From Nonomuraea sp. SBT364 (GTDB taxonomy: Bacteria; Actinomycetota; Actinomycetes; Streptosporangiales; Streptosporangiaceae), in NCBI RefSeq assembly GCF_001083785.1, contig NZ_LAVL01000035.1, positions 1 through 64,000 on the forward strand: 64,000 nt of DNA, given 5' to 3'. Under the pieces are notes generated by a model, which saw only the letters and a list, made by a program, of their open reading frames with translations, did no database searches and was not told the DNA's origin. A program made the position numbers and the translations under genes. Shown in pieces: positions 21,712 to 35,916 of this stretch. Within the stretch, counting starts at the first letter, position 1. Every line of letters starts with the position of its first letter.

Positions 21712-21793
21712 CTTCTATGACATTCGATTGCAAGCGATCTTTAAGTCGCACCCGATACGGTCGAATCCGCCTGTAGCGGAAGAGGAAGGTGCG

Positions 21794-23407
21794 ATGTCAC
21801 GACCCAGAGAGGCCTTGATCCAGGCAGGCCAGGGCGTAGCCCAAGCGGTCGCCCAAGGCGGAAACGTACGTCAGGCCATGAGCCAGGCCGTGGGGCAGGT
21901 CGCCCAGCAGGCGGGCCAGCTCGGCGGGCAGGGGCAGGGCTTCGCGCTGAACCCGCACGACTTCGCCGCCGCCCGTGACGGCGGCGTGTCGATCGGCACG
22001 CAGATCGAGGCGCGCACCGCCTCGCTCAACGAGGCCGGCGAGATCGTCAACCGCAGCTTCGCCGAGAACGGCATGCACGTCATCTCCCCCGTGGTGATCC
22101 CCAAGGGCAACACCGCCAAGGTGATCGTGCCGCTGGGCATCCTGATCGTGCTCGGCCTGATCGGCGCGCTCGGCAACGTCATCCCCAACACCGAGCTGTT
22201 CTTCGGCCCCCACTACTGGGTCGTGCTGGTGCTGGCGGCCGTGTTCCTGTGGTGGCGGCGCAGCGTGGTCATGGTGCCCGAGGGCTGCAAGGCCCTGATC
22301 ACCAAGTTCGGCAAGCTCGTGCACATCGCCGACCCGGGCCGGGTGACGCTGCTCAACCCGTGGAAGCGGGTCAGCTACATCGTCAACACGACCCGCGAAT
22401 ACCCCTTCAACGCACCGATCAGCGAGGCCCCGACCCAGCAGGGCGTCAAGGCCAGCGTCGACCTGTTCCTCCAGTTCAGGATCGAGAACCCGGCCGAGTT
22501 CATCTTCGTGCTCGGCTCGGTGAGCGGCTTCCAGTCCAAGCTGCAGAACGCCATCAGCGAGGTCACCCGCTCCCTGATCTACGCCCAGCGCGCCGAGGAC
22601 ATCTACGACCTGGTGGGCGAGAGCACGGTCGGCATGCTCGACAACCTCAACCAGCAGTTCCTGCCCGCCGTACGCCTCACCGACGTGAACATCACGCACG
22701 CCGAGCCGTCCAGCCAGGAATACCGCATGGACCTGGCCGCCCCCGAGATGGTCCGGGTGGCCAAGGAGGCCTACACCTACGAGTACGAGCTCCAGCTCCG
22801 CAAGGAGCAGAACGAGGGCGACCTGATCAAGGAGCTGGCCGGGCTGCAGGAGACGCTCAGCGCCATCCAGGCCGAGATCGCCGGCTACCAGGCCCGCATG
22901 GACACCGCGCTGGAGCGGGCCACCCACCAGGCGACCGCGCAGGCCAGGCAGCGCCTGGTCGAGGCCGAGTCCTCGGCCAAGGCCAACTCGGCGCTGCTGG
23001 AGGCGCAGGCGCTCGACATCAGGGCGCTCAGCGCGGCCGAGGCCCCGGAGATCCTCGACTACCGCTTCCAGCAGGACCTGCTGGACAAGCTGGAGTCGGT
23101 GTCGGCCCGGCTGCCGCAGGTCGTGCACGTGGGCGAGCAGAGTGACATCGACTTCCTGGAGCTGGCCCAGCAGCTCGTCGGCAGCAAGGCCGCGGTGCTG
23201 TTCACGCCCGAGGACATGGCCGCCATCCGGTCGCGCCTGTCCGAGATCGGCAGGCGCGTCTCGGGCCGCGAGGCGGAGATCGGCGCCCTGCTCAAGAAGG
23301 TCGAGAACGAGGTCACCGAGGCGCCTGACCCGGACCTGGCCGTCCTGGGCACCCCCGAGGGCCGCCACCATTCCGTCCCGCAGAGCATCGAGGGTGAGGT
23401 CCGATGA
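21794..23407 (+). CDS. SPFH/band-7 domain membrane protein (first paralogue)
   Basis: This 537-residue protein starts at ATG 21794 behind GAGGAAGG. A glutamine/glycine-rich N-terminal region (about 1-60) is followed by two hydrophobic segments (about 110-155, including VIVPLGILIVLGLIGAL and YWVVLVLAAVFLWW). The SPFH core follows: VPEGCKALITKFGKLVHI, FNAPISEAPTQQGVKASVDLFLQFRI and TRSLIYAQRAEDIYDLVG. A long coiled coil covers about 340-430. SPFH proteins oligomerise into membrane-associated rings or microdomains and often regulate proteases or channels. Its stop overlaps the next SPFH gene by four bases. Confidence 0.88.
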   Translation: MSRPREALIQAGQGVAQAVAQGGNVRQAMSQAVGQVAQQAGQLGGQGQGFALNPHDFAAARDGGVSIGTQIEARTASLNEAGEIVNRSFAENGMHVISPVVIPKGNTAKVIVPLGILIVLGLIGALGNVIPNTELFFGPHYWVVLVLAAVFLWWRRSVVMVPEGCKALITKFGKLVHIADPGRVTLLNPWKRVSYIVNTTREYPFNAPISEAPTQQGVKASVDLFLQFRIENPAEFIFVLGSVSGFQSKLQNAISEVTRSLIYAQRAEDIYDLVGESTVGMLDNLNQQFLPAVRLTDVNITHAEPSSQEYRMDLAAPEMVRVAKEAYTYEYELQLRKEQNEGDLIKELAGLQETLSAIQAEIAGYQARMDTALERATHQATAQARQRLVEAESSAKANSALLEAQALDIRALSAAEAPEILDYRFQQDLLDKLESVSARLPQVVHVGEQSDIDFLELAQQLVGSKAAVLFTPEDMAAIRSRLSEIGRRVSGREAEIGALLKKVENEVTEAPDPDLAVLGTPEGRHHSVPQSIEGEVR

Positions 23408-24633
23408 GCCGCGAGTTCTCGAAGATCAAGGAGTCCCTGGCCTCCTGGTCGGAGATCCGCCAGCTGCTGCGCGGCGGCGAGCAGGGCCAGCTCGTGCCCG
23501 TCGTGATCCCCAAGGACCGCCGCGGGTTCTCCTGGATGGCCCTGGTGTTCATCGCGATCTACTTCGCCGGGATGGCGGTGCTGACCGACTGGACCGTCAT
23601 GGCCGCGCTGGCCTCGCTGTTCTTCCTGGTCGTCGCGCTGCTCACGGTGTGGCGCAGGGCGATCATCGAGATCGAGGAGGGCACCACCGGGGTGCGCAGC
23701 CACTGGGGCGCGATCATCGGCACGCTGCCCCCTGGCCGCCACTACCTGTGGCTGCCGTGGGACCGCGTCGACGCGGTCGTCGACACCTCCACCGAGATCC
23801 CGTACTCGGCGCCGATCGTGGCCTGCCCGACGGCCGAGAACGTGCCGCTGAAGTCGATCGAATTCTTCCTGAAGTTCCGCATCGTCGACCCGGTGGCGTT
23901 CGTCCGCACGATCGGCGCCGGCAACTTCGACCTGGTGCTGTCCAGCGCCGTCCAGGACGCGATCCGGCAGCGCAGCCGCAGGGTCAACACCGAGCGGGCC
24001 TACGACCTGCGCGGCTCCGACGTCGGCGACATGCAGGACGCGCTCAACCGCCAGCTCGGCCGCTACGGGGTGCGCGTCACCGGCGCCAACATCCCCGACG
24101 TGCAGCTGCCCGACCAGTACCAGCAGCACCTGTCCACCCGCGAGAAGGTCGCCAAGGAGCTGTCGGCCTACGAGCGCGAATGGGAGCTGACCCGCAAGCG
24201 CCGCATCGACACGCTGCTGATGGAGATCGAGCGTTCCAAGAAGACCCGCGACGCCCGCGTGGTCGAGGTCAAGGCCGCCCACAACAAGGCGCGCAAGGAC
24301 GTGGCGCGCATGCTGGAGGAGCAGGAGACCGAGGCGCAGCGGGTGCGCTGGGAGATCGAGGCGCGCGGGCGCGCCGAGCTGACGTCCGCCGAGAACGAGG
24401 CCAAGGCGCTGCGCCGGCTGGCCGAGTCCTACCGCGACAACCGGGCCGTGCTGCAGTACGAGCTGGCTCGCAAGCGCCTCGACGTGGGCGCCAAACTGGC
24501 GGAGAACGCCCCGCAGCCGCTCGTGGTCCGCACGCAGCAGGGCGGCGGCGACTCCGCGCTGTCCACCCTGCTGCTGGCCCAGCTGCTTCCCCGCTTCTCG
24601 GCCAACGGCAAGGATCAGGCGCCGACCCCTTAA
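23404..24633 (+). CDS. SPFH/band-7 domain membrane protein (second paralogue)
   Basis: This 409-residue paralogue of the previous gene has VVIPKDRRGFSWMALVFIAI as its first membrane segment, a second at about 60-80, then IEIEEGTTGVRSHWGAII and an SPFH core with VPLKSIEFFLKFRIVDPVAF. Residues 235-360 are a charged coiled coil. The pair resembles other two-component SPFH complexes such as HflK/HflC in that two related subunits are encoded together, so hetero-oligomers are likely (inference). ATG 23404 overlaps the preceding stop (ATGA). Confidence 0.88.
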   Translation: MSREFSKIKESLASWSEIRQLLRGGEQGQLVPVVIPKDRRGFSWMALVFIAIYFAGMAVLTDWTVMAALASLFFLVVALLTVWRRAIIEIEEGTTGVRSHWGAIIGTLPPGRHYLWLPWDRVDAVVDTSTEIPYSAPIVACPTAENVPLKSIEFFLKFRIVDPVAFVRTIGAGNFDLVLSSAVQDAIRQRSRRVNTERAYDLRGSDVGDMQDALNRQLGRYGVRVTGANIPDVQLPDQYQQHLSTREKVAKELSAYEREWELTRKRRIDTLLMEIERSKKTRDARVVEVKAAHNKARKDVARMLEEQETEAQRVRWEIEARGRAELTSAENEAKALRRLAESYRDNRAVLQYELARKRLDVGAKLAENAPQPLVVRTQQGGGDSALSTLLLAQLLPRFSANGKDQAPTP

Positions 24634-24642
24634 GGAGGACCC

Positions 24643-25416
24643 ATGGTGTTCCGCAAGCTGATGGCCGCGTTCGGCGCGGGCGTCGAAGTAGACACGGTGC
24701 TGACCAACGCGACCGTGCGCCCCGGCGAGCCGCTGCGCGGGGTGGTCAACTTCCGGGGCGGCGGCTCCGACTACAAGGTGGAGGGCATCTACCTCGACCT
24801 GACCGCCGTGGTCGAGGTCGAGTCGGGCGACAACGAGTACAAGACGACCTACAGCTTCCTGCGCCAGCAGGTGGCGGGGACGTTCCAGCTCGCGGCCCGG
24901 GCCGAGCACGGCCAGCCGTTCGAGATCCCGATGCCGTGGGAGACGCCGATCAGCGCGATCTCCGGGCACGCGCTGCCCGGCATGCGGCTCGGCGTGCGCA
25001 CCGAGCTCGCGCTGGCCGGGGCGCTGGACAAGGGCGACCTCGACCCGCTGTTCGTCACGCCGCTGCCGGCGCAGGAGCACGTCATCGGCGCCCTGGACCG
25101 GCTCGGCTTCCAGTTCAAGAAGGCCGACCTGGAGCGTGGCACGCTGTACGGCTCGACGCTGCCGTTCTTCCAGGAGATCGAGTACTACGCGGGCGGCCAG
25201 TGGCGGCGCCACTTCAACGAGCTGGAGCTGACGTTCATCGCCGGGGCGCGGCAGATGGAGGTCATCCTGGAGGCCGACCAGCGCGGCGGTTTCCTGACCT
25301 CCAGCCACGACTCCTACAACCGCTTCACCGTCCGCTACGACGACCCGCCGGGCAGCGTCGACCAGGCGCTCCAGCGCGGCCTGGAGCAGATGGCGCGGCG
25401 GCGCGGCTGGTTCTAG
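24643..25416 (+). CDS. Spo0M-like sporulation-control protein (arrestin fold)
   Basis: This 257-residue protein matches the Spo0M/SpoOM family: FGAGVEVDTVLTNATVRPGEPLRGVVNFRGG over the first 45 residues, then EIPMPWETPISAISG and LGVRTELALAGALDKGDLDPL. The C-terminal YNRFTVRYDDPPG is also typical. These proteins have an arrestin-like beta sandwich and bind partners at the membrane; in Bacillus the homologue affects sporulation. Here it is the third gene of the SPFH unit (nine bases after the second SPFH gene, ribosome site AAGGAGG) and is followed by a strong terminator, so the three probably form one complex. Confidence 0.9.
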   Translation: MVFRKLMAAFGAGVEVDTVLTNATVRPGEPLRGVVNFRGGGSDYKVEGIYLDLTAVVEVESGDNEYKTTYSFLRQQVAGTFQLAARAEHGQPFEIPMPWETPISAISGHALPGMRLGVRTELALAGALDKGDLDPLFVTPLPAQEHVIGALDRLGFQFKKADLERGTLYGSTLPFFQEIEYYAGGQWRRHFNELELTFIAGARQMEVILEADQRGGFLTSSHDSYNRFTVRYDDPPGSVDQALQRGLEQMARRRGWF

Positions 25417-25566: not shown

Positions 25567-26640
25567 ATGGCACGGTTCATGGGGGCATTGCGGCGGATCG
25601 CCCCATGGGCGGCCCAGAACGCCGACGTGGCGATCGCGCTCGGCCTGGCGATCGTGGTGGGCGTGCTGGGCATCATGCCCGACGACATCCTCGGCCAGAT
25701 GTTCGGCGCCGACGGCACCGAGGTGCAGGCGCAGCTCGTCAACGCCGCGACCCTGGTGATCCTGGCGCTGGTGGCGACCGCGCTGCTGCGCGACCGGGCG
25801 CGGCAGGCGCCGGTCGAGGAGACCATCACCTCCGGCGCGCTGGCCCAGCTCCCGCTCCGGCTGGAGCGGCTGGAGCAGATCGAGACGTTGGTCCAGGGCA
25901 CCCGCAAGGCTCTCGACGCCCTGCAGCTCGTCCGGGTGCTCGGCAGCGCCCAGGAGATCGCCCAGGCGCACGCCGAGGCGCGCCGCGACGCCAGCCGGTG
26001 GAGCTTCAAGGGCGGCACCGGCACCTACCTGCGCGCCGTCACGCTGCCCGTGTGCGTGGCCGCCGCCCGCCGCGACAAACGCCACCTCACCGTCCGGGTG
26101 GAGATCATCGACCCGACCGACCCCGTGGTGTGCGAGGCGTACGCCCACTACCGCCGATCGCTGTCCGACCTGCCCGACGGCACCGGCGAGACGTGGACCA
26201 CCGACCGGGCCAGGAAGGAGTCCTACGCGACGATCCTGGCCGCGTTCTGGCACCGGCAGCGCTACGGGCTGCTGGACATCGGGGTGGGCCTGTCGTCCAC
26301 GATGACGACGTTCCGCTGGGACCTGTCCAGCAGCCGCCTCATCATGACGGTCGAGGACCCGAACATGGCGATGACGGCGCTGGCCGACACCTTCTACTAC
26401 GAGAACGGCGACACCGAGCTGCGCCTGAGCTTCGAGCAGGCCCGCCGGGTGCCGCTGGAGGCGTACAAGCGGGTGCCGCTCAGCGACGAGCCCACCATCG
26501 AGGAGGTCCAGGACCTGTTCGAGCGGATCGGGATGCCGCTCCCCAAGGCCTACAACGGCCGCGACGTGGTCGACATCGCGCGCAAGGCGCTGCGCGCCGT
26601 CGACCCGTACGGCGAGCCGGTGCGTGAGCACGGGTCATGA
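25567..26640 (+). CDS. Two-TM protein with a large cytoplasmic domain, unknown function
   Basis: This 357-residue protein has two hydrophobic helices near the N-terminus (VAIALGLAIVVGVLGIM, about 17-37, and ATLVILALVATALL, about 59-75), a short coiled coil (LPLRLERLEQIETLVQGTRKALDALQ split across about 95-122) and a 230-residue soluble domain. That domain contains TVRVEIIDPTDPVVCEAYAHY, ESYATILAAFWHRQRYGLLDIG and DLSSSRLIMTVEDPNMAMTALADTFYYE. I do not recognise the family. The two-helix-plus-soluble-domain layout occurs in membrane-disrupting effectors but is not diagnostic. The stop overlaps the cupin gene. Confidence 0.75.
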   Translation: MARFMGALRRIAPWAAQNADVAIALGLAIVVGVLGIMPDDILGQMFGADGTEVQAQLVNAATLVILALVATALLRDRARQAPVEETITSGALAQLPLRLERLEQIETLVQGTRKALDALQLVRVLGSAQEIAQAHAEARRDASRWSFKGGTGTYLRAVTLPVCVAAARRDKRHLTVRVEIIDPTDPVVCEAYAHYRRSLSDLPDGTGETWTTDRARKESYATILAAFWHRQRYGLLDIGVGLSSTMTTFRWDLSSSRLIMTVEDPNMAMTALADTFYYENGDTELRLSFEQARRVPLEAYKRVPLSDEPTIEEVQDLFERIGMPLPKAYNGRDVVDIARKALRAVDPYGEPVREHGS

Positions 26641-27251
26641 GCTACGTCGGCGTCTATGAGCAGCTCGTCCGCGGACGGGCCAGGGCCTGGGCGCTGGAGG
26701 CGATCTCCGGCGACGTCCGGGCCGTACGGCATCCGCTCGGTTTCGTCTGCCTGCCGCTGGAGCGAGACGGCGGCGAGGGGGTATGCATCCATCTGTGGTC
26801 AGATTCGCTCGCACCCGCGAGCAGCACCACCTCGCAGATCCACTGCCACAGCTGGGACCTGGTCAGCCATGTGCTCTACGGCCAGGTGCGCAACGTGCAC
26901 GCGGTGGTCGACGACGCGGGGCCGGACGCGACGCACCGCGTGTTCGAGGTGGTCAGCGCCGCCGACGGCGACCGCATCTCGCCCACTCCGCGCACCGTGC
27001 GGCACCGTACCGGGCTGGTGGAGTCGTTCGGGCCCGGCGACACCTACACGCTGCCGGCCGGGCGCTTCCACAGCAGCGTGGTGCCGGAGGGCGGCGAGGC
27101 CGCCACGGTCGCGCTCGGGCGGGGCCGCCCGGGCAGCCGGGACCTGTCGCTCGGCCCGCTCGGCGCGGGCGACCACCACGTGTCGAGGCAGCCGCTCGAC
27201 GACCGGGAGACGGCGCTCGCCGTACGCCTGATTGCCGCCCGCCTGAGCTGA
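26637..27251 (+). CDS. Cupin-like protein
   Basis: This 204-residue protein has a cupin metal-site pattern: IHCHSWDLVSHVLYGQVRN (histidines at about 69, 71 and 77) and later GDTYTLPAGRFHSS with the second-motif histidine. The sequence between resembles cysteine-dioxygenase-like single-domain cupins, although the full iron ligand set cannot be confirmed by eye. It overlaps the two-TM gene by four bases (ATGA) and is followed nine bases later by the phosphatase gene, so all three are one operon. The substrate is unknown. Confidence 0.7.
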   Translation: MSYVGVYEQLVRGRARAWALEAISGDVRAVRHPLGFVCLPLERDGGEGVCIHLWSDSLAPASSTTSQIHCHSWDLVSHVLYGQVRNVHAVVDDAGPDATHRVFEVVSAADGDRISPTPRTVRHRTGLVESFGPGDTYTLPAGRFHSSVVPEGGEAATVALGRGRPGSRDLSLGPLGAGDHHVSRQPLDDRETALAVRLIAARLS

Positions 27252-27260
27252 GGGGTGCCG

Positions 27261-28058
27261 ATGGACCTGGACCGCGCGCGAACGCTGGCCGTCGAGGCGG
27301 CCGAGGCCGCCGGGCGGCTGCTGCTGGACGGCGCCGGCGGCGCGGTCGGCGTCCGGGCCAAGGGCGGCTCCGGCGACGTGGTGACCGACCTCGACCTGGC
27401 GTCGGAGAAGCTGCTGCTGGAGCGGATCCTCACCGCCTATCCGTCACACGCGGTCATCGCCGAGGAGTCGGGCCTGCTCGGCGTCACGGGCAGCGAGTGG
27501 ACATGGCTGATCGACCCGCTCGACGGCACCAACAACGTGGCCATCGGCCTGCCGGCCTACGTGGTCGGGGTGGCGCTGTGCCACGGCGGGCAGCCGGCGC
27601 TCGGGGTGGTGCACGACCCGGTGACGGCCCGCACGTGGTCGGCGGTGCGCGGCGGCGGCGCGCTGGACTCCTCGGGCGCGCCTCTGCGTGTCCCGCACCG
27701 GCCCGCGCCGCACGGGCCGCTCCTGGCTTGGACCCAGGGGTATGCTGTGACCAGGCAGGACGCTTCCGCACGGGCGCTGCGGACGAGGCTGGAGCTGGCC
27801 TCCAGGCGGGTGCTGCAGCTGTGGGCGCCGCTGCTGACGTGGGCGATGCTGGCCCGCGGCGACATCGACGCGATCGTCGGCTACCGGGCCGAGCTGATCG
27901 ACCTTCCGGCGGGCGCGCTGATCGCGCGGGAGGCGGGGGCCGAGATCCGGGCGCTGGACGGCGGGCCGTTCGAGGAGAGCCTCGACGGCGCGGCCGATCG
28001 CAGCTTCGTGGCGGCCCACCCGAAGGCCATGCCGGGGCTGCTGTCGCTGCTTGCGTAA
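27261..28058 (+). CDS. Inositol monophosphatase-family phosphatase
   Basis: This 265-residue protein has VIAEESG (the metal-binding glutamates), WLIDPLDGTNNVAIGLPAYVV (the DPLDGT signature) and a C-terminal motif YRAELIDLPAGALIAREAGA that replaces the usual WDxAAG tryptophan-aspartate with I-D. Such enzymes cleave inositol phosphates, fructose-1,6-bisphosphate, histidinol phosphate or 3'-phosphoadenosine 5'-phosphate using Mg2+. The substrate here is unresolved. It ends the two-TM/cupin/phosphatase operon; a hairpin follows. Confidence 0.86.
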   Translation: MDLDRARTLAVEAAEAAGRLLLDGAGGAVGVRAKGGSGDVVTDLDLASEKLLLERILTAYPSHAVIAEESGLLGVTGSEWTWLIDPLDGTNNVAIGLPAYVVGVALCHGGQPALGVVHDPVTARTWSAVRGGGALDSSGAPLRVPHRPAPHGPLLAWTQGYAVTRQDASARALRTRLELASRRVLQLWAPLLTWAMLARGDIDAIVGYRAELIDLPAGALIAREAGAEIRALDGGPFEESLDGAADRSFVAAHPKAMPGLLSLLA

Positions 28059-28625: not shown

Positions 28626-29074
28626 TTGAGCAGGAACTTGCACAGGCCCTTGCCGGTGACGACCCGCTCGCCGTCGACGGTGATGCGGCAGGGCGCGGGC
28701 CTGAACTGGCCGTTGTCGTCGCGCACGGAGCCGGACACGATGGAGACCAGCCGGCCCACCTCCTGCTCGGCATCGGTCAGCTCGATCTTGGCGGTCTTCG
28801 ACCAGGGCAGGGTGGCCCCGGTCTCGATGCCGCTCTCGTCGGCGTTGTAGGTGATCGGCTGGACGGCCTCGCCCTTGCCCAGCACCTCCAGCTTGACCTT
28901 CCGCACGGCCTTGCGCGCGGCCTTCCCCGAGGTCTCCGCGCTCCGCGGGGTCCCGGCCGCCGAACCGGTGGAGGAGGGCGCCGACGCCGCCGAGCCGGAG
29001 GCTCCGCAGCCGCCCAGCGCCGCCGCCGCGAGCACGGCAAGACCGAAACATCTGATCAGAGGTGATTTGGCCAT
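28622..29074 (-). CDS. Lipoprotein of unknown function
   Basis: This 150-residue exported protein has signal peptide IRCFGLAVLAAAALGGCGAS with lipobox LGGC (C23). A serine/threonine/alanine spacer (about 25-50) precedes a single soluble domain VRKVKLEVLGKGEAVQPITY ... TAKIELTDAE ... CRITVDGERVVTGKG, with a cysteine pair near the end that could form a disulphide. The alternating strands resemble MmpS-like beta-sandwich lipoproteins, but I cannot confirm this. It lies 38 bp downstream of the ArsB-like carrier on the same strand, possibly in one transcript. Confidence 0.72.
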   Translation of the reverse strand: MAKSPLIRCFGLAVLAAAALGGCGASGSAASAPSSTGSAAGTPRSAETSGKAARKAVRKVKLEVLGKGEAVQPITYNADESGIETGATLPWSKTAKIELTDAEQEVGRLVSIVSGSVRDDNGQFRPAPCRITVDGERVVTGKGLCKFLLK

Positions 29075-29112
29075 GGCCACAATTGTCCCCGAGATCATCC
29101 GGTCCCCGGACC

Positions 29113-30285
29113 TCAGCCGAAGGCCACCAGCGCCCAGGTGGTCGCCAGCAGCCCGGTGACGGCCAGGCCGGCGCCGGTCAGCAGGAAGCGGCCCATGGGC
29201 ACCCGGACGTCGTGGCGGCGGCAGGACTCGAACCAGAGCAGCGTCGCCAGCGACGCCCACGGCGTGATGACCGTGCCCACGTTGGTGCCGACGAGCAGGG
29301 CGAACAGCTGCCCGCGATCGCCCGCCGGGATGACCTCCTCCAGCGCCTTGTAGGCGGGCAGGTTGTTGATCACGTTGGACAGCCCGGCGCCGACGGCCGC
29401 CGTGCGGTACGGGTCGCGCTCGTCGCCGAGCATCCAGTGCATCAGGTCGGCCAGGCCGTAGCGGCTGAGCGTGGGCACCACCAGGAACAGCCCGGTCACG
29501 AAGATCAGGAGCTGCCACGGCACGAGCCCCCAGGTCAGCCGCTTGCGGTCGCGCACCAGGAACGCCACCACGACGATGAGCCCCGCCGCCGTGGCCGCCG
29601 CCCACACCGCCACCCCGGCCAGCAGCGCGACGATGAACAGCACGCAGGCCACCGAGGCGGCGCCGAACAGCGCCCGGTCGGCGACCGGCTCCAGCAGCGG
29701 CGGCGTGTAGCGCAGGTCGCGCCGCCGCCCCCGCCGCCAGAAGAACGCCCACAGGAACGCCATCGTGACCAGGATCGCGACCGCCTGCGGCGCCCACATG
29801 TGCGCCGCGAACTCCAGCGAGCTCAGCTCGATGCGGTGCATGGCCAGCAGGTTCGTCAGGTTGGACACCGGGAACAGCAGGCTGGCGGTGTTGGCGAACC
29901 AGATCGTGGTCATGGCCAGCGGCAGGGCCGCGATGCGGGCCTTGGGGGCCAGGGCCAGCATCACCGGCGTGAGCAAAACGGCAGTCGTATCGAGATTCAG
30001 AAATATCGTAATAAATGACGCGAAGGCCGTACAAAGAAGGAAAAGGGCAACGTAGTTGCCCCGCCCGAACACCGCCATCCTGGCCGCGATCACGTCGAAG
30101 ACCTGAGCCTCTTTGGTGAGCTCGGCCAGCACGATGATGCCCACCAGGAACACCAGCAGCGGCCCGATCTCGGCCAGGCTCGCCCTGGCCTCGGCCAGGG
30201 GCAACAGCCCGGTGGCCACGAAGACCAGGCCGAGCGCGAGCAGCCCGATCCTGATCAGGTCGAGCACGCCAAAACGCCGCAACAC
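29113..30285 (-). CDS. ArsB/SLC13-type ion carrier
   Basis: This 390-residue membrane protein has 10-11 hydrophobic segments. FASFITIFLNLDTTAVLLTPVML and GLSNVINNLPAYKALEE with VGTNVGTVITPWASLATLLW are the two inverted N-x-D-T/T-N-x-G hairpin motifs of the ArsB/NhaD/SLC13 superfamily. Candidate substrates are arsenite, dicarboxylates or Na+/H+; there is no arsR or arsC nearby, so arsenite is not favoured. GTG 30285 is taken as start. The stretch 29976-30058 is AT-rich with rare codons. The longer frame upstream reads back through the STAND gene and is not real. Confidence 0.82.
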   Translation of the reverse strand: MLRRFGVLDLIRIGLLALGLVFVATGLLPLAEARASLAEIGPLLVFLVGIIVLAELTKEAQVFDVIAARMAVFGRGNYVALFLLCTAFASFITIFLNLDTTAVLLTPVMLALAPKARIAALPLAMTTIWFANTASLLFPVSNLTNLLAMHRIELSSLEFAAHMWAPQAVAILVTMAFLWAFFWRRGRRRDLRYTPPLLEPVADRALFGAASVACVLFIVALLAGVAVWAAATAAGLIVVVAFLVRDRKRLTWGLVPWQLLIFVTGLFLVVPTLSRYGLADLMHWMLGDERDPYRTAAVGAGLSNVINNLPAYKALEEVIPAGDRGQLFALLVGTNVGTVITPWASLATLLWFESCRRHDVRVPMGRFLLTGAGLAVTGLLATTWALVAFG

Positions 30286-30330
30286 CCGACGATGATCGCA
30301 CACGTGCTGGGAAACTCCGATCCCCCGTTG

Positions 30331-30336
30331 GATACT
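30331..30336 (+). promoter_or_regulatory. Candidate -10 of a leaderless promoter for the STAND gene
   Basis: GATACT lies six bases before ATG 30343, so transcription would begin at or next to the start codon. No convincing -35 was found 16-18 bases upstream. The GGGGAG adjacent to the ATG is too close for a normal ribosome site. Confidence 0.4.
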
Positions 30337-30342
30337 GGGGAG

Positions 30343-33300
30343 ATGGCACGTGACGGCAGGCCGACCCAGATCTTCGTCAGCTACTCCCCGGCCGACACGG
30401 CCTGGGCGACCTGGATCGCCTGGGAGCTGGAAGCGGCCGGCTACCGCACGATGATCCAGGCGTGGGACTTCGTGCCCGGCACCAACTTCATCGACTTCAT
30501 GGACCGCGGCGTCAGCGAGGCGCAACTGGTCGTGGCGGTGCTCTCGCGCAACTACCTGAGCTCGCGCTACGGGCGCCTGGAGTGGCAGGCTGCCCTGCGC
30601 GCCGACCCGGACAACCCGTCCAACAAGCTCGTCACGATCCGGCTGGAGGACGTGCAGCTCGACGGGCTGCTGTCCACGATCACCTGGGTCGACCTGCTGG
30701 GCGTCACCGACCCGGGGCAGGCCAGGGCGGCGCTGCTGGGCCGGGTCGGCGAGGCGCTGGCGGGCCGGGCCAAGCCGGAGACGGCGCCCGCGTTCCCGAC
30801 CGCCGGCGGGCCGCCCGTCGCGGTGCCGACGCTGCCGCCGCCCGGCGAGCGGGCCCGAGCCAGGCGCGCGCCGGTGTCCGCGCCGAAGTTCCCGCCGGCC
30901 ACCGGGCCGCAGACGCGCCGCGAGTCGCTCACCGTGCTGCACATCGCCGGGCCGCGGTTCGGGCGGGCGCTGCCCGAGCCGGGCGAGCCGTTCACGCCGG
31001 AAGACCTGCAGGCGCGCATCTGGGCGGATCTGACCGCCATGTACGACCGGGGCATGCCTCGGCCGGATCTCATGGTGGTCAGCGGCGACCTGACCGAGTC
31101 GGGCAGCCTCGGCCAGTTCGGCCAGGCGACCCGGTTCGTCACCGACTTACGGCTGCTCATCGGGCTGGAGCCGCACCGGCTGGTGATCGTGCCCGGGCCG
31201 CGCGACGTCACCAAGGCCGCGGCGAGCGCGTACTTCCTGACGTGCGAGGCCGACGACGTCAGCCCGCAGCCCCCGTACTGGCCCAAGTGGCGGCATTTCG
31301 CCGGCCTGTTCGGTGAGGTCTACCAGGGGCTGGACGACCGGGTGTTCGACGGCGGGCAGCCGTGGACCCTGTTCGAGGTGCCCGATCTGAAGATGGTCGT
31401 GGCCGGGCTCAACTCCACGATGGCCATGAGCCACCTGGAGCGCGACGCGTACGCGATGATCGGCGAGGCGCAGGCGGCCTGGTTCGCCGAGCGGCTGCGG
31501 CCTTACGAGGATCGGGCGTGGCTGCGGCTGGGCGTGATCGGTCATCCGCCGGCCGCGCTGCACGACGCCCCGGCCTTCGACCGGCTCCTGGCCCACCGGC
31601 TCAACCTGCTCTTCCACGGCCCCGGGCAGGCCGGCGACGGCGCCGTCGCCGCGCCGCGCTCCGGCCGCCACCACGTCGTCGAGATCACCCCCGGCGAGAC
31701 GCGCGTCTGGCTGCCCGACGGCGGCGCGCCGGAACGTTCCCGCCGCACCTGGCGGGCCGCCCGCGCCACCTTCACCGGCGAGACGCCGGACGCCCCGCCG
31801 CCGGCCCTCGCCCCGAGCTCGGGCGAGCGTGAGCCGAGCCCCGTCGACCTGCTGCTGGACCGCATCACCGAGGTGTGCGAGGCCCGGCACGAGCGGGCCC
31901 GCATCCGCCGCCTGCCCGGTCACCTGGTGGTCACCCACCCGGAGGACGGGTTCGTCCGCCAGCTCATGATCGGCGCGCACGTCGGCGAGCTGACCCCCGC
32001 CGACGCCGCCGACTTCGTCCGGCGCGCGCACGCGGCGGAGCTGGCCGCCGAGCTCGTCTACCAGGGTCCGCCGCCGGCCCGCGCGCTGCGCGACGACCTC
32101 ATGCGCCGGGGCGTGCGGCTGCGCAGCTTCACCGAGTTCCAGGGGCTGCTCGACCTGTCCGGCTACGTCAGCGAGCAGACCGCCAGGCTCGCCGGCGACC
32201 GCCGCTACCCGCCCGGCCTGTACGTCCCGCAGCGCTACCGGGAGCTGGACCGGCAGGGACAGCACGTCAAGGAGGGGCTCACCGACGAGCTGATGCGGCT
32301 GCTGGCCGCCGACCACGGCCGGTTCCTGCTGCTGCTCGGCGACTTCGGCCACGGCAAGACGTTCGCGCTGCGCGAGCTGGCCCGGCGCATCCCGGCGGAG
32401 CTGCCGCACCTGACGCCGATCTTCATCGAGCTGCGCGCCCTGGACAAGGCGCACTCCGTCGACGGGCTGGTGGCCGCCCACCTGGCCAACCACGGCGAGG
32501 AGTTCATCGACCTCAAGGCGTTCCGCTACCTGCTGCGGCAGGGCCGGATCGTGCTGCTGTTCGACGGGTTCGACGAGCTCGTCACCCGGCTCACCTACGA
32601 CCGCGCCGCCGACCACCTGGCGACGCTGCTGGCCGCCGCCGAGGACAAGGCCAAGATCGTGGTCGCCAGCCGCACCCAGCACTTCAAGTCGCACAGCCAG
32701 GTGCTGACCTCGCTCGGCGAGATGGTCGGCGTGCTGCCGCAGCGGCGGGTGCTCGGCGTCGAGGACTTCACCCACGACCAGATCCGCTCCTACCTGGCCA
32801 ACCGCTTCGACGACGGCGACGAGGCCGGCGCCCGCATGTCGCTCATGGAGGGCATCAAGGACCTGCTGGCGCTGGCGCAGAACCCGCGGATGCTGAGCTT
32901 CATCGCCGACCTCGACAGCGACCGGCTCCGCATGGTGGCCGGCGCCCGGCACACGATCAGCCCGGCGCTGCTGTACGAGGAGATCCTGCAGTCGTGGCTG
33001 GCCTTCGAGGAGCGCCGGGCGAAGGTGCCCGGCTCGGCCGCCTCGCTCACCAGGGACGAGCTGTGGCGGGCGGTGACGGCGCTGGCGCTGCGGCTGTGGG
33101 ACTCCGGCGAGTCGCTGCTGGGCCTGGACGAGCTGACGGAGATCGCCGAGACGCTGGCCGACCTGGCCAGCGGCCAGCTCACGGTCGCGCACACCGCGCA
33201 CGCGGTGGGGTCGGGCAGCCTGCTGGTGCGCACCGAGGAGGGCATGTTCGGGTTCATCCACGCCTCGGTGATGGAGTGGCTGATCGCCCGGCACGTCGCG

Positions 33301-35916
33301 GCCACGCTGGACTCGCCGGTCGCGCTGTCGCGCGGTCCGCTGTCGGCGCTGAGCATCGAGTTCCTGTGCGATCTGGCCGACGTGCGCGCGCTGCGCGCCT
33401 GGGTGGCCGACCCGCCCGCCGACGACGTGGCCCGCGCCAACGCGGTCAAGATCGCGGCGCGGCTGCGCACCCCGGCCAAGGCCGACCTGCGCGGCGCCAA
33501 CCTCAAGGGCGAGGACCTGTCGGCGCGGGACCTGCAGGAGGTCGACCTGACCGGCGCCGACCTGAGCGGCGCCACGCTGGCGGGCACCAACCTGTCCAGG
33601 GCCGTGCTGCGCGACGCCAAGCTGGTGGGCGCCAGGCTCGACAAGGCCGTGCTGGCCGGCGCCGACCTGCGCGGCGCCGACCTGTCGGGGGCGCGCCTGG
33701 CCCGCTCCGACCTGAGCGACGCCGCGGTCGAGGGCGCCCGCTGGCACCGGGCCGCGCTCATCAACGTGACCGGCACGCTGCCCCACCTGCCGGGCGCCGC
33801 CGTGGCGCCGGGCCAACCGGTGGAGATCCAGCTCGCCCCGGCCGCGATCGGCGTGCCGTACGGCTACCACTTCCAGACCAGCCGGCTGCCCGAGCCGATC
33901 GCCTACAGCCCCGACGGCTCCACGCTGGCCATCGGCAACGAGGACGGCGACGTGCTGCTGTGCGCCGGCGGGCTGCCGGTGCGCACCCTGCACGGACACG
34001 GCGGCCGCGTCTACGCGGTCTCGTTCGCCGGTGACGTGCTGGCGACCGGCGCGAGCGACGGCACCGTGCGGATCTGGGACTCCCTCACCGGCGAGCCGCT
34101 GCGCGAACTGGCCGGCGACCCCGACGGCGTCTGGCCGCTACGGCTCGACCCCGCGGGTGAGCTGGTCGCGGCGGGCGGCGGTGACGGTGTGGTGCGCATC
34201 TGGAAGACGGCCACCGGAGAGCTGGTGCACGAGCTGGCCGGGCACCGGGCGCCCGTCTACACGGCCTCGTTCGGCGGCTCGGCGCTGGTGACCGGCGACT
34301 CGGCGGGCGTCGTACGGGTGTGGAACCAGACCACCGGCGAGCTGACCCGCACCCTCGGCGGCCACCGCGGCGCGGTCTTCCGTGCCGTGCACAGCCCCGA
34401 CGGCACGCTGCTGGCCACCGGCGACGAGGCGGGCACGCTGCGGGTGTGGGAGACGGGCACCTGGGCGTCGCGGGCGGTGCTCACCGGGCACCGCGGCAGC
34501 ATCTACTGCGTGACGTTCGCCCCCGACGGGTCGTTGCTGGCCACCGGCGACACCTCCGGCGACGTGCGGCTGTGGGACCCGGCGGGCGAGTTCCGCGGCC
34601 TGCACACCACCCACGCCGCCGCCGTCTACCAGGTGGCGTTCTCGCCCGACGGCCACACGCTGGCCACCGGCGACTCCGGCGGCGTGGTGCGCCTGCAGCC
34701 GGTCGGCTCGCCGCACCGGGTGGAGCTGACCGGGCACCGGAGCTCGGTGTGGCCGTTCGCCTGGCGGCCCGACGGCGAGCAGCTCGCCACCAGCAGCAAC
34801 GACGGCACCATGCGGCTGTGGGACCCGGTGTCCGGGCAGTGCCAGCGGGTGCTGCGCGGCCACGGCAGGCGGATCACCTCGGTGCGGTTCAGCGCCGACG
34901 GCTCGATGCTGGCCACCAGCGGCAACGACGGCGTCGTGCGGGTGTGGGAGCCGCGTGCCGGGCGGCTGCTGCGGGAGGTGCCCGGGCGCGCCGACCGGCT
35001 CATCTCGGCGCTGTTCTCACCGGCCGGGCCGGTGCTGGCCGCCTCCAGCAACGACGGCGGCGTGCACTTCTGGAACGCCGCCACCGGCGACTACGAACGC
35101 GAGCTGAACGTCGAGACCGACCACGTGTGGGCCGAGGCGTTCAGCCCCGACGGCAACATGCTGGCCACGGCCAACGACGACGACAGCGTGCGGATCTGGT
35201 GGCGTTCGACCGGCCGCCTGGTCACCAACCTCGGCGACCACCGCGGCCGGGTGCGCTCGATCGCCTTCAGCCCCGACGGCCGCTACGTCGCCACCGGCTG
35301 CGACGACCGGCTCGTACGGCTGTGGCACGTGGAGTCGGGCGGCCGGGTGGCGACCCTCGAAGGGCACACCGACCGGGTCTACTCGGTGGCGTTCTCGCCC
35401 TCGGGCCGTCACCTGGCGAGCGGTGGCAACGACGGCATGGCCAAGCTGTGGGAGCTGCGCCCCGGTCAGCCCTGGCAGCCCGCCCTGCGGCACACGCTGC
35501 GGGCGAGCGCGGGGCGGCTGTGGAGCGTCGGCTTCGACGCCTCCGGCGACCGGATCGCGACCGGTGGCGACGACCGCGCCGTGCGCGTCTGGGACTCCGC
35601 CACCGGGCAGCTGGTGCACACGCTGCGGGGGCACTCCAGGCGCGTCTGGTCGGTCGCCTACAGCCCCGTCTCCGGCCTGCTGGCCAGTGCGGGCGACGAC
35701 GGGGTGGTCATCCTCTGGGAGGGCGCTGAGCGCCACGCGACGCTGCTGGGGCTGCCGGAGGGGTGGGCGGCGCTGGCGCCCGACGGCCGTTACAAGGTGC
35801 ACGGGGAGACGGCGGGGCAGTTCTGGCACGTGATCGGGATGTCGCGGTTCGAGCTGGGCGAGCTGGACCCGCACCTGCCGGGCGTCCGTCAGGTGCCCCT
35901 CGACGCGTCCTTCTGA
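30343..35916 (+). CDS. TIR - degenerate metallophosphoesterase - NACHT - pentapeptide - WD40 STAND protein
   Basis: This protein has 1857 residues. The TIR domain (8-140) has FVSYSPADTAWATWIAWELE, QAWDFVPG and LSRNYLSSRYGRLEW, with E80 as the candidate catalytic glutamate. Residues 196-430 have the calcineurin-like phosphoesterase layout but most metal ligands are changed. Residues 499-633 form an unassigned module. NACHT shows Walker A GDFGHGKT (666-673), Walker B VLLFDGFDE (about 737-745) and sensor VVASRT. Pentapeptide repeats cover 1047-1138, and about 15 WD40 units (1183-1796) suggest two seven-bladed propellers. STAND proteins sense a ligand with the repeats, oligomerise through NACHT and activate the effector; bacterial TIRs cleave NAD or make cyclic ADP-ribose. 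A role in phage defence is inferred, not shown. Confidence 0.9.
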   Translation: MARDGRPTQIFVSYSPADTAWATWIAWELEAAGYRTMIQAWDFVPGTNFIDFMDRGVSEAQLVVAVLSRNYLSSRYGRLEWQAALRADPDNPSNKLVTIRLEDVQLDGLLSTITWVDLLGVTDPGQARAALLGRVGEALAGRAKPETAPAFPTAGGPPVAVPTLPPPGERARARRAPVSAPKFPPATGPQTRRESLTVLHIAGPRFGRALPEPGEPFTPEDLQARIWADLTAMYDRGMPRPDLMVVSGDLTESGSLGQFGQATRFVTDLRLLIGLEPHRLVIVPGPRDVTKAAASAYFLTCEADDVSPQPPYWPKWRHFAGLFGEVYQGLDDRVFDGGQPWTLFEVPDLKMVVAGLNSTMAMSHLERDAYAMIGEAQAAWFAERLRPYEDRAWLRLGVIGHPPAALHDAPAFDRLLAHRLNLLFHGPGQAGDGAVAAPRSGRHHVVEITPGETRVWLPDGGAPERSRRTWRAARATFTGETPDAPPPALAPSSGEREPSPVDLLLDRITEVCEARHERARIRRLPGHLVVTHPEDGFVRQLMIGAHVGELTPADAADFVRRAHAAELAAELVYQGPPPARALRDDLMRRGVRLRSFTEFQGLLDLSGYVSEQTARLAGDRRYPPGLYVPQRYRELDRQGQHVKEGLTDELMRLLAADHGRFLLLLGDFGHGKTFALRELARRIPAELPHLTPIFIELRALDKAHSVDGLVAAHLANHGEEFIDLKAFRYLLRQGRIVLLFDGFDELVTRLTYDRAADHLATLLAAAEDKAKIVVASRTQHFKSHSQVLTSLGEMVGVLPQRRVLGVEDFTHDQIRSYLANRFDDGDEAGARMSLMEGIKDLLALAQNPRMLSFIADLDSDRLRMVAGARHTISPALLYEEILQSWLAFEERRAKVPGSAASLTRDELWRAVTALALRLWDSGESLLGLDELTEIAETLADLASGQLTVAHTAHAVGSGSLLVRTEEGMFGFIHASVMEWLIARHVAATLDSPVALSRGPLSALSIEFLCDLADVRALRAWVADPPADDVARANAVKIAARLRTPAKADLRGANLKGEDLSARDLQEVDLTGADLSGATLAGTNLSRAVLRDAKLVGARLDKAVLAGADLRGADLSGARLARSDLSDAAVEGARWHRAALINVTGTLPHLPGAAVAPGQPVEIQLAPAAIGVPYGYHFQTSRLPEPIAYSPDGSTLAIGNEDGDVLLCAGGLPVRTLHGHGGRVYAVSFAGDVLATGASDGTVRIWDSLTGEPLRELAGDPDGVWPLRLDPAGELVAAGGGDGVVRIWKTATGELVHELAGHRAPVYTASFGGSALVTGDSAGVVRVWNQTTGELTRTLGGHRGAVFRAVHSPDGTLLATGDEAGTLRVWETGTWASRAVLTGHRGSIYCVTFAPDGSLLATGDTSGDVRLWDPAGEFRGLHTTHAAAVYQVAFSPDGHTLATGDSGGVVRLQPVGSPHRVELTGHRSSVWPFAWRPDGEQLATSSNDGTMRLWDPVSGQCQRVLRGHGRRITSVRFSADGSMLATSGNDGVVRVWEPRAGRLLREVPGRADRLISALFSPAGPVLAASSNDGGVHFWNAATGDYERELNVETDHVWAEAFSPDGNMLATANDDDSVRIWWRSTGRLVTNLGDHRGRVRSIAFSPDGRYVATGCDDRLVRLWHVESGGRVATLEGHTDRVYSVAFSPSGRHLASGGNDGMAKLWELRPGQPWQPALRHTLRASAGRLWSVGFDASGDRIATGGDDRAVRVWDSATGQLVHTLRGHSRRVWSVAYSPVSGLLASAGDDGVVILWEGAERHATLLGLPEGWAALAPDGRYKVHGETAGQFWHVIGMSRFELGELDPHLPGVRQVPLDASF

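Follow-up and report, generated by a model that had tools for sequence, protein, structure and literature searches.

The STAND gene of Nonomuraea sp. SBT364 (30343..35916, + strand, within the 64 000-nucleotide stretch analysed here, the window) encodes a TIR–NACHT–WD40 protein of 1857 residues, and it recurs across genomes in the company of four partner genes, A, B, C and T. These recurring partners, together with near-fixation in the genus, suggest a surveillance system of several genes that is built into the host, and not a solitary anti-virus gene. Bacterial NLR-like proteins have been studied mainly as mobile anti-phage genes. The present gene is set apart by being mostly single-copy, at a recurrent place, near-fixed in its genus and accompanied by defined, co-inherited partners. 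We may therefore ask whether a TIR-NLR can serve as a bacterial housekeeping checkpoint, and whether its toxicity depends on dedicated partners; both questions can be tested. On balance, we lean towards a host-encoded, partner-dependent multi-gene NLR system. That its trigger is mainly internal rather than phage is conceivable, with the odds somewhat against it.

The protein is read in a single intact frame that holds all of the domains named in the initial annotation, in the order TIR, pseudo-phosphoesterase, inactive restriction endonuclease (REase), NACHT, pentapeptide repeats, WD40 repeats and a C-terminal motif. The TIR domain (residues 10–129; 30370..30729, +) matches TIR_2 with an E-value of 1.7e-34 (119.4 bits against a cutoff of 28), and its catalytic residue Glu80 (codon 30580-30582, +) is kept in 190 of the 190 rows with a letter at that position in an alignment of 193 relatives. 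Structure prediction backs the TIR fold, as well as that of the phosphoesterase. By its predicted fold and its catalytic Glu, the domain may be assigned to the TIR NADase class, the NADase activity itself being only predicted. The NACHT NTPase (about residues 661–823; 32323..32811, +; PF05729, E 9.4e-11, 42.3 bits against a cutoff of 26.7) carries both Walker A and Walker B motifs, and Lys672 (codon 32356-32358, +), Asp741, Asp744 and Glu745 are conserved in the same alignment. Judged by this domain and its motifs, the protein is a NACHT-type STAND NTPase, and the switch proposed at the outset holds. The same is true of the C-terminal repeat region, which is made up of pentapeptide repeats (about residues 1046–1145; 33478..33777, +; PF00805, E 2.8e-35) and 14 stretches of WD40 repeats (about residues 1201–1800; 33943..35742, +; PF00400).

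Two modules separate the TIR domain from the NACHT domain. The calcineurin-like phosphoesterase (about residues 193–465; 30919..31737, +) is degenerate, as had been read from the sequence: the fold is kept, and the di-metal ligands of the DxH, GNHD and GHxH motifs are lost across the aligned family, which rules out an active phosphoesterase in this protein. Despite this loss, Asp288, Asn357 and His401 are retained in 193 of 193 rows. The following module, initially taken for a new one, is the already described NA-iREase3 (NACHT-associated inactive restriction endonuclease; residues 502–605; 31846..32157, +; PF22739, E 9.1e-36). Nor is the domain order unusual, as was supposed; it is common in actinobacteria. 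The protein scores below the cutoffs of the named anti-phage NCBIfam models EruA (31.8 of 1000 bits), DS9_1 (30.6 of 420 bits) and HyoA (12.9 of 1200 bits), and its matches in the PADLOC list, which comes without cutoffs, are only to the TIR or repeat parts. Measured against three Nonomuraea loci, the dN/dS of the whole gene is 0.18–0.28, compared with 0.18–0.34 for coaE. By part, it is 0.02–0.13 for the TIR domain, 0.06–0.09 for the NACHT domain and 0.36–0.61 for the first WD40 half, the fastest-evolving part. The STAND gene in Streptosporangiales is under purifying selection.

Three of the partners, A, B and C, are found upstream of the STAND gene and share its strand, and T is divergent from it. 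Gene A (25567..26640, +) encodes 357 residues with two predicted transmembrane segments; at least two are predicted in 63 of 70 loci. It has the fold of the phospholipase D (PLD) superfamily and no HKD catalytic motif (HxKxxxxD), which is found in 0 of the 50 sequences examined. It has 817 relatives, of which the 120 listed are devoid of Pfam domains and nearly all named hypothetical; A points to a membrane pseudo-PLD family without a Pfam description. Gene B (26637..27251, +; 204 residues) has no Pfam match and is cupin-like by motif, with HxH, G and PxGxxH-like motifs recognized by eye and His69, His71 and His145 invariant in 46 rows. No PDB sequence matched the A or B profile at an E-value of 1. 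Gene C (27255..28058, +; 267 residues) belongs to the inositol-monophosphatase family, as indicated by its Pfam match (PF00459, E 3.2e-42, 145.3 bits against a cutoff of 27) and by the metal ligands Glu70, Asp87, Asp90 and Asp216, intact in 69 of 69 sequences. Gene T (29113..30300, −) encodes a transporter of the CitMHS/ArsB superfamily (PF03600, E 8.7e-36), with a provisional start codon. Genes were mapped with a GC-frame caller of our own, which puts some start codons in the wrong place, and an ORF at 29062-30018 (+), first taken for a conserved neighbour, is an antisense shadow of T. A second A-like gene lies beside the STAND gene or the first A in three genomes (G001, G035 and G242; about 40–47% identical), and also at loci L080 and L087.

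The association of these genes with the STAND gene was followed at several scales. Among the 80 loci fetched, B is present in 72, A in 70, C in 68 and T in 74, and in the eight loci without B only 1 to 2303 bases precede the STAND match. The A-B-C-T set is found again in Streptomyces, Nocardia and Amycolatopsis, where the outer flanks of the loci differ. In Frankia and Protofrankia, B, STAND and T are retained; L078 (Frankia) lacks both A and C, and A may have been cut off in L076. Given these ties between the STAND gene of this branch and A, B, C and T, its description as a one-gene system is wrong here. All 43 Nonomuraea genomes are concordant: 40 have both A and STAND and three have neither. 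In the sample of the order (n = 297), in which A was the partner searched genome-wide, A and STAND occur together in 121 genomes, STAND alone in seven, A alone in 14 and neither in 155, before correction for split contigs; the seven STAND-only cases are six distant STAND genes and one contig edge. In G049 the only A-like gene is 44% identical.

In the genus of G488 the STAND gene is patchy, with strong matches (E below 1e-70) in 41 of 160 genomes. The 40 strong A matches all fall inside these 41, and the one STAND genome without a strong A, G719, is an assembly of 990 contigs. The 42 strong B matches are in the same 40 genomes and in two more, G672 and G756, where the STAND gene beside B is a distant one (E 4e-63 and 1e-67) and A is lacking; counting them, A is present in 40 of 43. 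Weaker matches had been dropped before these counts (STAND in G672, G756 and G678, with E above 1e-70; A in G708 and G804; B in G663, G667, G708 and G804). The P value of the A/STAND co-occurrence is 3e-57 in the order sample and 5e-37 in this genus, shared ancestry being ignored in both. In 28 of the 36 genomes tabulated with both genes on one contig, A and STAND are 6.4–43.7 kb apart, and in the other eight about 4.5 kb; in the two genomes mapped (G709 and G488), A-B-C form one unbroken group and T remains next to STAND.

The pattern is one-sided. Close STAND genes without B were not seen where the contigs allow a look, yet A-B occur without STAND in G067, G079, G182, G195, G217, G235 and G264 (the A-only genomes of the order that were looked at exclude G137, G225, G233 and G296). 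This asymmetry would fit partners that hold the NLR in check, license it or serve as its guardees. Losses can also be joint. In G014 and G025 the whole set is gone, Spo0M and coaE being about 4.2–4.4 kb apart with unrelated genes between them, and in G066 none of the set lies within the 19 kb fetched. In G172 the genes decay together: STAND has large internal deletions, A is shortened, T is present, and B and C were not found. G041 retains a T-like gene (57%). The counter-example is G217, in which A-B-C-T are kept and STAND is gone, leaving 358 bases from T to coaE. Apparent absences of STAND in G011 and G171 were rejected, as pieces of the gene lie at contig ends, and so was that of A in G177, where A is off the contig.

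The genome of strain SBT364 has one full-length STAND copy. The gene is present in 40 of the 43 Nonomuraea genomes sampled (39 by search, plus G011 with pieces at two contig ends), in 128 of the 297 genomes and 22 of the 62 genera of the order at an E-value of 1e-20 (with a single match in 124 of the 128), and in 32 of the 394 genomes and 12 of the 137 genera of the class sample. No match was found in 50,697 phage records, nor in any true plasmid among 72,556 plasmid-collection records; the sole match there, NZ_LT559118.1, is an 11.85-Mb Nonomuraea gerenzanensis record filed as a plasmid that is evidently a chromosome. Neighbours in the 80 loci include rpsA (44), polA (34) and SPFH and Spo0M genes (35–36), and coaE clusters were found in 54 of 81 sets, the window included. 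In Streptosporangiales, the STAND gene stands at a recurrent place near coaE-rpsA-polA and is mostly single-copy. In the window, two adjoining SPFH/Band-7 genes followed by Spo0M (21728-25416) lie upstream of A, as in 35–36 of the 80 loci.

The initial annotation had proposed an immune or death sensor, to be doubted if close homologues proved to be ordinary signalling genes outside defence islands. No known defence gene was found among the window neighbours scanned with Pfam or NCBIfam, a search of the window's flanks only; PADLOC gives no match for A, B, C or T, and many Streptosporangiales loci adjoin coaE, rpsA and polA. Taken together, this leans against a defence-island association and towards the ordinary-gene side, for this branch only. 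No paper on STAND with the A-B-C-T gene set was found in the open-licence literature searched.

The wider family is more diverse. Our own profiles, run on 39 loci, reveal a core that does not vary (phosphoesterase, inactive REase, NACHT, pentapeptide, WD40 and C-terminal motif), some of the genes being split or cut. In 20 divergent loci (L140–L159), the head placed on this core is a TIR domain in 13, a trypsin-like domain in two (L156 and L159) and of unidentified type in five (L150, L154, L155, L157 and L158); neither A nor B was found there in the 5.8–19 kb fetched. With its exchangeable N-terminal domains and, in part, several copies per genome, this divergent branch resembles conflict systems; together with the weak matches to named anti-phage models, this speaks for the immune side. 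In G672 and G756, B adjoins a NACHT protein that has an HTH head in place of TIR, with a separate TIR-phosphoesterase gene nearby. At L123:4217-13037 and L124:5947-14692, B adjoins an HTH-headed phosphoesterase-NACHT-WD40 protein and a separate TIR-phosphoesterase gene lies near. The dead phosphoesterase is there on both the HTH-NACHT protein and the TIR gene, as expected of an adaptor. In this family, an inactive phosphoesterase and an inactive nuclease would form the invariable link that joins interchangeable heads to a NACHT switch. Four phosphoesterase-NACHT family matches occur in one genome, G323 (L140–L143, with L142 spread over several frames), and a 1117-residue relative from Nonomuraea antimicrobica (P0026) has listed Pfam domains that end at the pentapeptide repeats, with no WD40.

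From what is known of such families, the WD40 propellers would bind the trigger, the NACHT domain would oligomerize with ATP and the TIR domains, brought together, would consume or convert NAD+, with growth arrest or cell death to follow; the pseudo-phosphoesterase and inactive REase may serve as constant connectors between head and switch. From the one-sided pattern, we infer that the partners could restrain, license or be guarded by the NLR, which might monitor a state, of the membrane or of a small molecule, that A, B, C and T maintain. A partner-dependent system of this kind is favoured by the way in which A and B track STAND in the patchy genus of G488, even at up to 44 kb, by the presence of the set across several actinobacterial orders, by the co-loss in G014, G025 and G066, by the decay in G172 and by the conservation of the TIR Glu and the Walker residues. 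It is weakened by G217 and the other genomes with A-B and no STAND, by G672 and G756 without A, by L078, by the conflict of five of 24 supported splits between the A+B and STAND trees, and by the fast first WD40 half, as a phage sensor might show. A more specific form, which we put forward only tentatively, is an addiction-like guard: a near-core TIR-NLR, kept only with B and usually A as antidote or guardee, would watch the membrane or small-molecule state of the A-B-C-T set and, on failure, kill or arrest the cell via NAD+. The gene would then represent one line of a modular, defence-like family, the shared core of which bears TIR, protease or HTH heads, and this line would have become a housekeeping checkpoint.

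Other readings have to be weighed against this partner-dependent system. The domain plan, the exchangeable TIR and trypsin-like heads of divergent relatives with up to four copies per genome, the faster first WD40 half and the weak EruA and DS9_1 matches, far below their cutoffs, would all suit a stand-alone anti-phage STAND of the Avs/bNACHT type, in which WD40 binds a phage product, NACHT oligomerizes, TIR removes NAD+ and the infection aborts, with A, B, C and T as mere neighbours. We regard this as unlikely, as A and B accompany STAND even where they are not adjacent to it, the gene is near-fixed and mostly single-copy in Nonomuraea, many loci adjoin core genes, and the phage and plasmid records yielded no true match. 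The partners could instead synthesize, cleave or transport a small molecule under a STAND signalling regulator, the TIR domain of which makes a signal without killing. Such a metabolic or membrane control module would agree with the preserved metal ligands of C, the metal-type cupin motif of B, the transporter T and the HTH head beside B in G672 and G756. However, the separate TIR-phosphoesterase gene in these two genomes means that TIR is kept there, A-B persist without STAND, and C is missing at some loci retaining B and STAND; this reading seems to us quite improbable. We very much doubt that shared ancestry and location alone, with genes inherited together at one place and no common function, account for the data. 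Synteny within genera is strong, the co-occurrence tests ignore phylogeny, and G217 and others have lost STAND alone, but the pairing is intact at 6.4–43.7 kb in most of the genomes tabulated in the patchy genus, and the same set has different outer flanks in other orders. When trees were compared for 40 loci, 19 of 37 splits were common to STAND and coaE+rpsA, and two of 17 supported core splits were in conflict, which is a weak test.

The partner-dependent system can be set beside known ones. Like the Avs and bNACHT anti-phage STAND proteins, it has a central STAND/NACHT NTPase flanked by an effector at the N-terminus and a sensor region at the C-terminus; it differs in its two inactive-enzyme connectors, its co-inherited partners and its near-fixed, mostly single-copy state in one genus. 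The STAND conflict systems of multicellular bacteria, described in passages of PMC8195603 and PMC7159879, combine variable effectors, TIR and calcineurin-like domains among them, with adaptor domains. They share a constant switch core with exchangeable heads, whereas here an inactive phosphoesterase belongs to that constant core, and those passages name no A-B-C-T set. According to PMC13236601, LypABC of Caulobacter is a CARD-NLR-like system serving host lysis in gene transfer. It is also a multi-gene NLR-like system in host use, yet it has peptidase effectors and no TIR, and the likeness drawn here is one of description.

Further afield, the APAF-1 apoptosome has a WD40-gated NTPase switch and plant TIR-NLRs carry a TIR effector on an NLR, whereas the present protein is of the bacterial NACHT type, with extra connector modules and partner genes.

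Finally, a GATACTG box (30331..30337, +) lies directly 5′ of the STAND start codon. The ATACTG motif is found within 120 bases upstream of STAND in 60 of 76 loci (0.006 expected per locus), with an in-frame start 2–8 nucleotides past it in 53 of the 76. It precedes A in only one of 68 loci and is absent from the Streptomyces and Herbidospora loci. Unlike the box, the remaining DNA upstream of the STAND start is not conserved, which suggests a leaderless transcript, and we infer that GATACTG is the probable −10 element of a leaderless STAND mRNA.
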